Part shown: positions 52,055 through 55,915 of the stretch, in pieces | How positions within the stretch are numbered: the stretch's first letter is position 1 | Layout: every line of letters begins with the position of its first letter | Assembly (NCBI RefSeq): GCF_023195885.1 | Contig: NZ_JALPKO010000005.1 | Span: forward strand, 1 to 64,000 | Source: Methylonatrum kenyense | GTDB taxonomy: Bacteria; Pseudomonadota; Gammaproteobacteria; Nitrococcales; Aquisalimonadaceae | Length of the DNA: 64,000 bases | Direction: 5' to 3' | Notes under the pieces: generated by a model | Database searches by the model: none | Seen by the model: only the letters and a program-made list of their open reading frames with translations | What the model was told of the DNA's origin: nothing | Position numbers and translations under genes: made by a program

Positions 52055-52125
52055 AACCGACTGCCTGGCCCGGATCGCGTCATGACGACGCGATCCGTTA
52101 TTGAACACTGCGAGAGTGAATGGGT

Positions 52126-52668
52126 ATGACGGACGTCCGTATCATCAAGAAGTATCCGAACCGCCGCCTCTACGACACCGCGATCAGCAGCTACATCACG
52201 CTGGCGGATGTCAAGCGGTTGGTCATCGACGGTGTCGATTTTCAGGTCATCGATGCCAAGAGCAAGGACGACCTTACGCGCACCATCCTGCTGCAGATCA
52301 TCAGCGAGGAGGAGGAGGGCGGCGAGCCCATTTTCAGCAGTGAGTTGCTGGCCCAGATCATTCGCTCGTACGGCGGCAACATGCAGAATCTGCTGACCAG
52401 CTATCTGGAAAAAAGCATGGACATGTGGTCCGAGCAGCAGCGCGCATTCCGTGAGCGGACGCGCGAGTTCATTGATGGCAACCCAATGACCATGCTGACC
52501 CAGATCGCCGAGCGCAATCTTGCCATGTGGCGTGCCATGAGCGGCGTTGCCGGCGAGGAAGGCAAAGGCGCCGACGCCTCCAGCCAGAGGTCAGCGGCTA
52601 ACACCGAAGAGCAGACCGGCGGCGACAAGCCCACGCCGGATTCCCGACGCCAGGCCAGCGGTAAATAG
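52126..52668 (+). CDS. phaR: PHA synthesis repressor PhaR
   Basis: About 180 residues. The N-terminal PHB/PHA accumulation regulator domain reads [20 protein letters not shown] and [19 protein letters not shown]; the second domain contains [22 protein letters not shown]. PhaR binds PHA granules and represses phasin and synthesis genes. ATG 52120 is an alternative start. It follows phaA by about 70 bp. Confidence 0.95.
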
Positions 52669-52756: not shown

Positions 52757-52867
52757 GCCCCTCAATTGTTGCGTTGCATCAAATCCTGATTGTCTTCATC
52801 GACCCGACGCCGTCTCCGGTGGGTCGGTCGGTGTTTAATAGTTAATTGAATAGCAAGGGGTTTATCC

Positions 52868-53614
52868 ATGGCGAATCGTGTTGCTCTGGTCACCGGCGGA
52901 AATGGCGGTATCGGCACCGAGATCTGCAAGCAGCTTGCCACTGCGGGCTATCGGGTGGTCACGACCTGTGTCGATGCCGAGCGTGAAAAGATTGCCGACT
53001 GGCAGAAGGAACTCGCCGCGGCGGGCACCCAGGTGGACTGGGTGGAATGTAACGTCACCGATTTCGAAGCCTGCAAGGCAATGGCCGCGGAGGTTACCGA
53101 AAAATTCGGTCCGGTGGATGTGCTGATCAATGCGGCCGGTATCACCCGCGATGCCTTTGCCCACAAGATGCCGTTGGAGAACTGGGACTCGGTTATCCAG
53201 ACCAACCTGTACAGCGTCTTTAACGTGACGCGGCAGTTTGTCGAGGGCATGCGCGAGCGTGGCTTTGGCCGGATCATCAATATTGCATCGGTAAACGGCC
53301 AGACCGGCCAGTTCGGTCAGGCCAACTACTCTGCGGCCAAGGCAGGCATGCACGGTTTTAGCATGGCGCTGGCCAAAGAGGGCGCACGCAAGGGCATTAC
53401 CGCGAATACCATCTCGCCGGGCTATGTCGAAACCGCAATGACTGCGGCGATTCCGGAAGAAGTGCGTAACGGTATCGTTGCCCAGGTGCCGGCGGGCCGG
53501 ATGGGTCGTCCGGATGAAATCGCCCGTGCCGTCGTGTTTCTCGCCGCCGACGAAGCGGAATACATCAACGGCGCCAACATCCCGGTGAATGGCGGCCTGT
53601 TCACCAGTTTCTGA
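52868..53614 (+). CDS. phaB: Acetoacetyl-CoA reductase
   Basis: 248-residue SDR, the usual PhaB length. VTGGNGGIGTEICKQL binds NADPH; NAAGITRDAFAHKM and NIASVNGQTGQFGQANYSAAK are PhaB-specific segments with catalytic Ser, Tyr and Lys. It makes (R)-3-hydroxybutyryl-CoA for PHA synthase. Confidence 0.96.
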   Translation: MANRVALVTGGNGGIGTEICKQLATAGYRVVTTCVDAEREKIADWQKELAAAGTQVDWVECNVTDFEACKAMAAEVTEKFGPVDVLINAAGITRDAFAHKMPLENWDSVIQTNLYSVFNVTRQFVEGMRERGFGRIINIASVNGQTGQFGQANYSAAKAGMHGFSMALAKEGARKGITANTISPGYVETAMTAAIPEEVRNGIVAQVPAGRMGRPDEIARAVVFLAADEAEYINGANIPVNGGLFTSF

Positions 53615-53633: not shown

Positions 53634-53729
53634 CAGGTCTGGCGGTGGATGCCCGAAAGCGTTAAGCGCCAGACCTGCAGGGTTTCGGATGCGGTGCAAA
53701 AATATGTTGACAGCCTAGTCAGGTCTGGC
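53634..53729. promoter_or_regulatory. Three CAGGTCTGGC motifs around the small-RNA promoter
   Basis: CAGGTCTGGCG (53634-53644) and its exact inverse CGCCAGACCTG (53667-53677) form an 11-bp inverted repeat, and a third copy CAGGTCTGGC (53720-53729) fills the promoter spacer. A dimeric regulator or a leader hairpin would fit. The bound factor is not known. Confidence 0.6.
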
Positions 53730-53735
53730 TATGCT
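53707..53735 (+). promoter_or_regulatory. Promoter of the PHA-locus small RNA
   Basis: Perfect -35 TTGACA (53707-53712), 17-nt spacer, TATGCT (53730-53735). Transcription would begin near 53742. Confidence 0.7.
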
Positions 53736-53772
53736 GCAAAGCAACAAAGGCAGACAAAAAGAAAGGGACCGG

Positions 53773-53862
53773 ATGGTCCCTGGCATGGCGCTCTCTTGGA
53801 GTCTGGCTTTATTGATTGTTATCGGCCTGAAGGCCATTTGCGACCAGCGGAGCGCTTTGTAA
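53773..53862 (+). CDS. 29-residue candidate small membrane protein
   Basis: ATG 53773 opens MVPGMALSWSLALLIVIGLK, followed by nine residues AICDQRSAL and a stop. AAGGGA ends 5-6 nt upstream. The peptide is one hydrophobic helix with a polar C-terminus, as in many small membrane proteins. The ribosome site and start codon lie in the GGGACC-GGAT-GGTCCC hairpin. Length is below what sequence alone can prove coding, so this is tentative. Confidence 0.35.
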   Translation: MVPGMALSWSLALLIVIGLKAICDQRSAL

Positions 53863-53937
53863 GTTGGTGCTTCCGGAAACCAGGTTCTCGGACCTGGAAC
53901 CATCTCCTCCAAGGCGGCACCCGTGCCGCCTCTTTCG

Positions 53938-53963
53938 CCCCCTCGCCCGAGGGGGTTTTTTTT
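53938..53963 (+). terminator. Intrinsic terminator of the PHA-locus small RNA
   Basis: CCCCCTCG-CC-CGAGGGGG (53938-53955) followed by eight T (53956-53963), directly after a second GC hairpin (53913-53930). Confidence 0.92.
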
Positions 53964-54083
53964 GTCCGGTATTCAGCCGAACGGATAACTGGTTTGAAGT
54001 GTACGCGATGTACCGACAGTCGCAAGCCCTTTTGATGCTGCGGCGCATCAGTTGTGCCGCGGTGGAAAGGGTCGGGCGGCATC

Positions 54084-55091
54084 TCAAGCGAGCCAGTCGA
54101 GGATGCGCGCGACGGCCGCTCGCCCCTGCCGGCCGCCGGTAAACAGGCCGAGGTGACCACCCGGCAGGCAGTGGTTGCTGTAACGCTCGGCGGGCAGCAG
54201 GTGCTCCAGGCCCCTGGTGACCGCCGGAGGCACCAGGTGGTCGGCATCGGCAATGACCGACAGGACCCGGGCCTGAATCGCGGACAGGTCCACCTGCCGT
54301 TCGGCAATCCGAAGCTCGCCGGCGAGTAGGGCGCCGCGCTGGTAAATCTCCTCAACGAACTGGTTGAACAGGGCGGCCGGCTGGTCCGGACAGTCGTACA
54401 TCCAGGCTTCCAGGTGCAAAAAGTCGTCCAGCGCCTCATCGTTGCCGGTGATCTCGGGCAGGTTGCTGTAGCGGCGGATCAACAGGTCGGTCGGTTTCAA
54501 TGCGGTAAAGGCGGCGGAAAGCGCCGGGCCGGGAATATTGCCGTCTGCGGCCGTGGTCGGCTGCCAGGTCGCCGCGAGATGCCCCAGTCCGTGGCCGCAG
54601 GCGGGCGGGTTGAGTGGCACTGCCATGTTGACCAGGCGCCCGATTGCCTCCGGATACAATGCCGCGTAACAGCTGAGAAAAATGCCGCCCTGGCAGACGC
54701 CAATGGCATTCAGCGGTTGCCCGCCGTTGCGGTGGCGCAGCCAGCGAACCACTCGGCCAAGGAAATCATCCACATAGTCATCCAGGTCCAGCAGGGTATC
54801 GGCCGCGAGTGGTCGACCCCAGTCCACCAGGTAGACGTCGTGGCCGGCTTCCAGCAGGCGCCGTACCATGGAGCGGCGTGGCGACAGGTCCAGCAGATCG
54901 GGTCGATTGACCGTTGAATAGACCAGCAATAACGGCGTGCCGCCGGGCTCCTGCTCTGGCAGATGGTAGCGGCGCAGGCTGAAGGGCAGTTGCCGCAGTA
55001 CGGTATCGAAGGGCGTGGCGTCACGGCGCACTGGCTGTCGGGCGCTGCAGCGGCGGAGCGCCTGCAACATCTCCGGGCCGATGAACGTCAT
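54084..55091 (-). CDS. phaC: Class III PHA synthase catalytic subunit PhaC
   Basis: 335-residue alpha/beta-hydrolase polymerase, close to class III length (about 355). The lipase-like box GVCQGG has nucleophile Cys133, with Asp284 in ADADHLVPP and His313 in PGGHLGLF completing the triad. PhaC polymerises (R)-3-hydroxyacyl-CoA and needs PhaE. Its ATG overlaps the phaE stop by 4 bp. It runs toward phaB. Confidence 0.95.
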   Translation of the reverse strand: MTFIGPEMLQALRRCSARQPVRRDATPFDTVLRQLPFSLRRYHLPEQEPGGTPLLLVYSTVNRPDLLDLSPRRSMVRRLLEAGHDVYLVDWGRPLAADTLLDLDDYVDDFLGRVVRWLRHRNGGQPLNAIGVCQGGIFLSCYAALYPEAIGRLVNMAVPLNPPACGHGLGHLAATWQPTTAADGNIPGPALSAAFTALKPTDLLIRRYSNLPEITGNDEALDDFLHLEAWMYDCPDQPAALFNQFVEEIYQRGALLAGELRIAERQVDLSAIQARVLSVIADADHLVPPAVTRGLEHLLPAERYSNHCLPGGHLGLFTGGRQGRAAVARILDWLA

Positions 55092-55915
55092 GACTGGTGT
55101 GCGGCGACCTGACGCCGTAAGGCGGCAAGCTCGGTACGCAGGCGCTGGACGTCCGCCTGCAGTTCCGCCAATTCGACGGGGACTGTCGGGTCTGGCATCT
55201 GGCGACGCAGCTGTTGCAGGCGCTGCTGGGTGGACAGCAGGTCACGGCGGGTGGGCAGTCGAAACATCTGCAGTACGTCCTCCAGCAGCCGCCCGCCCGC
55301 ATCGCGCAAGGCCGCCAGTGCCGTGTTCAGACGCCGCAGGCAGCGCTGGTAGGCTGGATCCTGCAGCAATTCCTGCCAGGCCGACTCCAGGGCTGCGAGC
55401 CAGGCCTGCTCCAGTCGTTCGGCATCCGGGGGCTCGTCGCTCGCGGTCAGGTCCTCGCGCCAGCGCCGGCTCGCATCCTCGCTCATCTGCAACAGGCAGA
55501 TGCCGTAGTCACGTTGCGCCCGCTGGAACTCCGGCAGCGCCTCCCGCAGTTGCCGCCATTCCCGGTCGCGGCAGGCGGTGAGCCCGAGTGCGGGCCATTG
55601 GCAGAGCAGCGGGCCAAGCAGTGCCGCAGCCTCCGGCGACCCCGGGTCGGCGCTTCCGCCAGCAACCTGCTGCAGCCAGTCGGCCAGCCGCCGGCTGACC
55701 TGGTCGGCTTCCTCCACGTAGTGGCGCAAGCCATCCAGCAGATCCCGGGTCTGGTCCGACAAGGCATCCTGCCAGTTGGCCTGCTGACGGAGATGGTGCG
55801 CCATCTGCTGCATCGCCGCGCGCAACCCGCCCTGCCAGGGCGCCTGGCCATCGGGGGTGTCACCGCCGGCATGCTGCAACCAGGTCAGCCACTGATCGAG
55901 GAATCCACCATGCAT
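55088..55915 (-). CDS. phaE: Class III PHA synthase subunit PhaE
   Basis: 275-residue, mostly helical protein with Trp/Gln-rich N-terminal half (WLTWLQHAGG) and a C-terminal coiled coil (ELAELQADVQRLRTELAAL). LLQDPAYQRCLRRLN and FRLPTRRDLLSTQQRL match the PhaE pattern. PhaE stimulates PhaC in Chromatiaceae-type synthases. Its start lies 2 nt after the bepA stop, so the three genes form one unit bepA-phaE-phaC. Confidence 0.93.
   Translation of the reverse strand: MHGGFLDQWLTWLQHAGGDTPDGQAPWQGGLRAAMQQMAHHLRQQANWQDALSDQTRDLLDGLRHYVEEADQVSRRLADWLQQVAGGSADPGSPEAAALLGPLLCQWPALGLTACRDREWRQLREALPEFQRAQRDYGICLLQMSEDASRRWREDLTASDEPPDAERLEQAWLAALESAWQELLQDPAYQRCLRRLNTALAALRDAGGRLLEDVLQMFRLPTRRDLLSTQQRLQQLRRQMPDPTVPVELAELQADVQRLRTELAALRRQVAAHQS

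Follow-up and report, generated by a model that had tools for sequence, protein, structure and literature searches.

A small RNA gene in the PHA locus

The window, a 64,000-nt stretch of the Methylonatrum kenyense genome, carries a PHA locus in which phaR and phaB converge on a phaC-phaE pair (Table 1). A preliminary description had proposed a regulatory RNA gene in the gap between phaB and phaC, citing TTGACA and TATGCT hexamers 17 nt apart, followed by about 220 nt that end in a double hairpin and T8. Each of these elements was located where it had been described.

Table 1 Features of the sRNA gene and the surrounding PHA genes in the window.
Feature	Position	Strand	Remarks
phaR, PHB/PHA accumulation regulator, presumed sRNA repressor	52120..52668	+	PF07879 7e-30, PF05233 1e-15
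Second PhaR-type box TGTTGCGTTGCATCA, phaB promoter region	52767..52781	+	Motif match
phaB-type acetoacetyl-CoA reductase gene	52868..53614	+	SDR family
Predicted stand-alone sRNA gene	53707..53963	+	Promoter, ~220-nt RNA, UCUCCUCC, hairpin, intrinsic terminator
Sigma-70-type sRNA promoter TTGACA-17 nt-TATGCT	53707..53735	+	TTGACA 53707-53712, TATGCT 53730-53735
PhaR-type operator TGCTGCAAAGCAACA	53732..53746	+	Overlaps -10 and +1; fits TG[N]TGC[N]3GCAA
Predicted sRNA transcript, ~220 nt	53741..53963	+	Start inferred from promoter spacing; end at terminator
sRNA 5' hairpin, an intrinsic terminator when read on the minus strand	53764..53781	-	Probably the end of the phaE-phaC mRNA
Central stem GCGCUCU (53788-53794) / GGAGCGC (53849-53855)	53788..53855	+	Consensus fold; closes a small hairpin at 53824-53835
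Hairpin 5' of anti-SD (CCAGGU..ACCUGG)	53880..53897	+	In this copy; sequence not conserved
Anti-Shine-Dalgarno (anti-SD) motif UCUCCUCC	53903..53910	+	Invariant in 13 family copies; also in the second order
Conserved hairpin 3' of anti-SD (GGCGGCA CCCG TGCCGCC)	53913..53930	+	Compensatory changes
Intrinsic terminator with T8	53937..53963	+	Stem 53937-53955, T8 53956-53963
phaC, class III PHA synthase, convergent	54084..55091	-	Alpha/beta hydrolase; class III inferred from adjoining phaE
phaE, class III PHA synthase subunit	55088..55915	-	PF09712 1e-16

A promoter match alone is at chance level, with 1 seen against 0.6 expected in 2.5 kb, and is thus unremarkable. Yet the promoter, the palindrome that overlies it, the anti-SD motif, the hairpin and the terminator are each conserved in other genomes, TTGAC and its spacing being kept in the 25 sRNA copies from the order of the window organism that bear the palindrome (hereafter the box). 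This conservation of the whole arrangement marks positions 53707-53963 as a genuine sRNA gene, as judged by sequence comparison. Lack of conservation of promoter and terminator in related genomes had been named beforehand as grounds for abandoning the proposal; both proved to be conserved.

No Rfam 15 family matches the sRNA at its gathering threshold, the only Rfam hit in the window being a tRNA, and membership in a known Rfam family was therefore rejected. In the open-licence literature searched, no RNA of this kind was found to be reported from these bacteria, in agreement with the earlier remark that none had been described in this position. Matches to plasmids and phages are limited to the 28-33 nt of the terminator, and an origin in a mobile element or phage was likewise rejected. 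Between phaB and the sRNA promoter lies a perfect inverted repeat, CAGGTCTGGCG..CGCCAGACCTG at 53634-53680, which is not followed by a T-run; no intrinsic terminator was seen in this interval.

Conserved core and predicted fold

A BLAST search with a 281-nt query against 59 related genomes gave matches in 15, of which three were near full length (the genome itself and two congeners). Most of the others align over the last ~65 nt only, and this shared 3' piece consists of UCUCCUCC, the hairpin and the terminator. The covariance search suggested in the preliminary description was carried out on the related genomes and returned model scores in 41 of the 54 genomes of the order. Scores are strong in the window organism's own family and in the Halorhodospira family, with copies in Aquisalimonas (A. 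lutea CECT 8326), Halorhodospira (H. abdelmalekii DSM 2110) and uncultured Ectothiorhodospiraceae represented by metagenome-assembled genomes. The weak matches are probably due to chance, and the weakest ones inspected lack CTCCTCC.

Homologs are mostly 165-237 nt long, with compact forms of ~93-140 nt. The 5' half varies among copies and is absent from compact ones such as L058 (~108 nt) and L078 (~93 nt). Since compact copies of ~93-110 nt retain only the box, a short leader, UCUCCUCC, the hairpin and the terminator, the anti-SD module is the predicted working core of the sRNA. Extra copies of the 3' module occur away from PHA genes in Aquisalimonas-type genomes (L009, L044 (=L010) and L016). 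Their promoters are overlaid by a different palindrome, TGTACAaTAaTTGTACA (TGTACA..TGTACA), which suggests that another regulator drives the same module there.

Folding of the full-length RNA gave -93.7 kcal/mol (z = -3.0), lower than all 200 shuffled sequences. Covariation over the whole structure was 0.161 against 0.071 for shuffled alignments, with none of 500 shuffles as high, and in the hairpin at 53913-53930 three of the seven pairs are altered on both sides with pairing kept. The preliminary description had depicted CTCCTCC (53904-53910) as unpaired between two stable hairpins. Both hairpins are present in the window copy, and the 3' one is conserved, but the sequence of the 5' one is not. 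As to accessibility, the motif is unpaired in the consensus fold of the alignment and mostly open across the family, with a mean unpaired probability of 0.69 in 24 copies and 0.76 in 17 copies from a second order (see below), compared with ~0.4-0.5 for the whole RNA. In the window copy, however, it is paired in the minimum-energy fold, with a mean unpaired probability of 0.48 and an opening cost of 3.2 kcal/mol.

A PhaR-type operator on the promoter

The -10 hexamer of the sRNA promoter is fused to the palindrome TGCTGCAAAGCAACA, an element absent from the preliminary description. The motif that it fits was confirmed by footprinting for the Herbaspirillum PHB regulator PhbF (PMC3206438), and the TGC/GCA core of the Bradyrhizobium PhaR operator also fits the box (PMC6201568); these comparison operators are beta- and alphaproteobacterial, and PhaR binding is assigned here by motif only. 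The box is present in 25 of 29 inspected sRNA copies of the order, against a chance rate of ~0.001 per 30-nt window. The copies lacking it comprise one at a PHA locus (L053) and the three extra copies with the different palindrome.

A genome-wide search with the looser pattern TGNTGCN3GCANCA returned 23 sites, compared with 2 for the reversed pattern. They include the phaB promoter region, two phasin genes and a site preceding a second PHA synthase gene. Both inspected phasin genes (Pfam Phasin_2) carry paired boxes, one of each pair being fused to its -10 in the manner of the sRNA promoter. Most inspected phasin genes across the order share this design, for example GTGCTATGTTGCAACGCACAA, so that, quite apart from the sRNA, the box marks the phasin regulon. 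With the operator on its promoter and PhaR encoded in the same genome, the sRNA gene almost certainly belongs to the PhaR regulon.

Further elements of this kind were observed in the window genome. A PhaR-like box, TGCTGCGGCGCATCA, lies at 54036-54050, just beyond the phaC stop codon. The second synthase, with a PhaC_N domain (G000:C27:161800-163115, L035), gives the genome a class I-type enzyme besides the class III phaC-phaE pair, and it too has a PhaR-like box upstream. A third phasin-family match is found at G000:C25:70516-70803, ~7 kb past the window end.

Linkage to PHA genes within and beyond the order

PHA genes lie within 1.5 kb of the sRNA in 29 of 35 entries for the order, a tally in which a few contigs are counted twice and one Aquisalimonas contig is included by virtue of its M48 gene, which follows phaE in the window. 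The commonest arrangement is phaR-phaB, sRNA and convergent phaC-phaE. The entries without nearby PHA genes are the three different-palindrome copies, the box-bearing L018 and L171, and the contig fragment L062.

In a second gammaproteobacterial order, that around G223, the module is detected by model match in 53 of 61 genomes. The RNAs are compact there (~90-140 nt), some of them in tandem, and a box, typically TATACTGCACCGCAACA, is present at 17 of the 21 inspected loci. Sixteen of the 21 follow phaR, and PHA genes occur within 1.5 kb in 18 of 23 entries. These loci have phaR upstream and no convergent phaC, yet keep the box and the anti-SD motif. Behind phaR in L253, L260 and L261 stand two tandem CTCCTCC motifs, apparently tandem compact copies of the sRNA with its box. 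Two genomes from a further family carry the anti-SD module in the 3' part of a phasin-like gene, downstream of tandem PhaR boxes (L076:1060-1572 and, on the minus strand, L074), with phaA-phaR upstream in L076; no Pfam phasin match was found for this gene, whose identity is assigned from context and composition.

The preliminary description had linked the RNA to PHA genes by position. With a PhaR-type operator on the promoter and PHA linkage recurring across lineages, that link is now much stronger than position alone could make it.

Proposed mechanism

These features are best explained by a PhaR-repressed, trans-acting anti-SD sRNA of the PHA regulon, a reading to which we assign a probability of roughly 0.7. 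In the absence of polymer, PhaR would occupy the palindrome over the -10 and +1 and block the promoter. As PHA granules form, PhaR would be drawn onto them, and the phasin genes and the sRNA would be derepressed jointly. The 3' hairpin and terminator would then stabilise the transcript, probably with help from Hfq, and pairing of UCUCCUCC with Shine-Dalgarno regions would reduce translation of the mRNAs concerned. The outcome might be a feed-forward brake on mRNAs of the PHA regulon, such as those of phasins, or a wider damping of translation during carbon storage.

What the sequence shows is a conserved gene, the operator and its recurrence at phasin genes, the PHA linkage and the conserved anti-SD core; transcription, PhaR binding, titration, the part of Hfq, base pairing and the targets are steps that we infer. 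An intrinsic terminator with a long U-run (T8) and an hfq gene in the same genome (E 2e-29) are both as expected of an Hfq-type sRNA, and Hfq is encoded in 52 of the 54 genomes of the order. That the RNA acts in trans through its anti-SD motif is the most likely mode of action.

A simple duplex-energy screen covered the 56 window genes, the two phasins and the second PHA synthase gene. In this crude comparison the window genes ranged from -4 to -22 kcal/mol; the start region of phasin B (-16.1 kcal/mol) came within the upper third and that of phasin A (-12.9 kcal/mol) near the middle, so that the phasins are not singled out. Complementarity over 14 nt to the anti-SD region gave many near matches genome-wide, in a search that had no annotation by which to rank them.

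Alternative explanations

The sequence could instead be the tail of the phaB mRNA, released by processing, with the local promoter of minor importance. phaB is also preceded by a PhaR box, and both the lack of a visible terminator between phaB and the sRNA promoter and the placement of the L076/L074 module in the 3' part of a phasin-like gene fit such an origin. Against this stands the conservation of the local promoter and box in 25 copies, and we regard a 3'-end RNA as unlikely; it would in any case alter the biogenesis of the RNA and not the anti-SD mechanism.

A second alternative concerns the opposite strand. Because the minus-strand terminator coincides with the sRNA 5' hairpin and its A-tract, the phaE-phaC mRNA should cross the sRNA gene and end there, and its 3' UTR should be complementary to the greater part of the sRNA. 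The two RNAs might then form a cis-antisense or sponge pair whose main role is mutual control or RNase III cleavage. The minus-strand terminator lies at a near-constant 29-34 nt from the box start in most of 15 box-bearing copies, and a convergent phaC accompanies the sRNA in most copies. Several Halorhodospira copies, however, have no minus-strand terminator, the second order keeps the box and anti-SD motif without a convergent phaC, and the L076/L074 module stands behind a phasin-like gene. As the antisense layer is not general, we hold it as a rival or an addition to the PhaR-repressed trans-acting sRNA; it could tune the sRNA, and that it constitutes the main function is improbable.

Sequestration of CsrA/RsmA, as by RNAs of the RsmY/CsrB type, was considered on account of several GGA motifs in the window copy, one of them in a hairpin loop (~53771-53773), and of a sub-threshold RsmY score, seen in L259 only. 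Neither close relative keeps the loop GGA (GGACCGAAGG, GGACCGATGG), the domain that holds it is missing from compact copies (~94-108 nt), and no RsmY/CsrB match occurs in the window; a CsrA decoy is thus very unlikely and was rejected, the loop GGA not being conserved. A short translated gene of 25-29 codons (MALSWSLALLIVIGLKAICDQRSAL), open with an ATG in the window copy and partly similar in G001, was dismissed as scarcely credible, since neither start nor frame is conserved: the ATG is lost in G002, no frame of at least 14 codons exists in G003, G005, G011 or G022, and the 5' part is absent from compact copies.

Comparison with known RNAs

The closest described circuit is PhaR-MmgR of Sinorhizobium, which the preliminary description did not mention. 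In Sinorhizobium meliloti, mmgR is repressed by PhaR, and its RNA reduces the amount of phasin proteins (PMC12542648, PMC8401924). The mmgR promoter has a PhaR (AniA) site, and the RNA acts in PHA (PHB) control. For Caulobacter members of the MmgR family, pairing by means of an anti-SD 10-mer has been proposed (PMC12559287); this signature was reported for SisA-D, and MmgR has the same 10-mer. Unlike the window sRNA, MmgR (alpha-r8, RF00519) is a 77-nt alphaproteobacterial RNA that is also under NtrC, and the sources give no pha-locus position for it. The window sRNA scores 13.4 bits against RF00519, below the threshold of 41.

The best sub-threshold Rfam match is anti-hemB, or Burkholderia RNA 7 (RF02837; 27.8 bits, E 1.7e-4, curated score 49.5), which shares the anti-SD motif, two hairpins and U8; the window sRNA lacks that family's extra stem around the anti-SD. 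The Betaproteobacteria toxic small RNA (RF02278) resembles it in UCUCCU, the hairpin and the terminator with its U-run, but the window sRNA reaches only 17.1 bits against a threshold of 50, and a class-wide search gave no match in its genome. RF02278 RNA is toxic in E. coli, and its native function is unknown (PMC4603805).

PHA is a commercial bioplastic. MmgR, from one alphaproteobacterial lineage, was the sole sRNA under PhaR control encountered in the open-licence literature searched. If the proposed function holds, many PHA-accumulating Gammaproteobacteria possess an unannotated sRNA whose level reports free PhaR, and hence polymer. Granule formation would thereby be tied to translation in a way open to direct test, and PHA yield could be approached through a small element that can be deleted. 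A native trigger is also suggested for one branch of the anti-SD sRNAs, a widespread group of largely unknown function. We put at somewhat better than even the chance that an sRNA switch responding to granules belongs to the regular equipment of the PHA regulon in much of the Gammaproteobacteria. Such PhaR-operated anti-SD sRNAs, in long or compact form and singly or in tandem, would stand between phaB and phaC, downstream of phaR or at a phasin gene's 3' end, paralleling PhaR-MmgR of the Alphaproteobacteria by descent or independently, and polymer stores would set the translation of selected mRNAs.

At E <= 0.01, RF02278-like RNAs are detected in 138 of the 369 gammaproteobacterial genomes searched, but only 2 reach the curated score, and the family model in Rfam is perhaps too narrow. 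In a contrast set of 30 such copies from the class, none has a PHA gene nearby and most are without a box, which sets them apart from the window sRNA. The four exceptions, L274, L285, L286 and L290, lie away from PHA genes yet have a PhaR-like box upstream.
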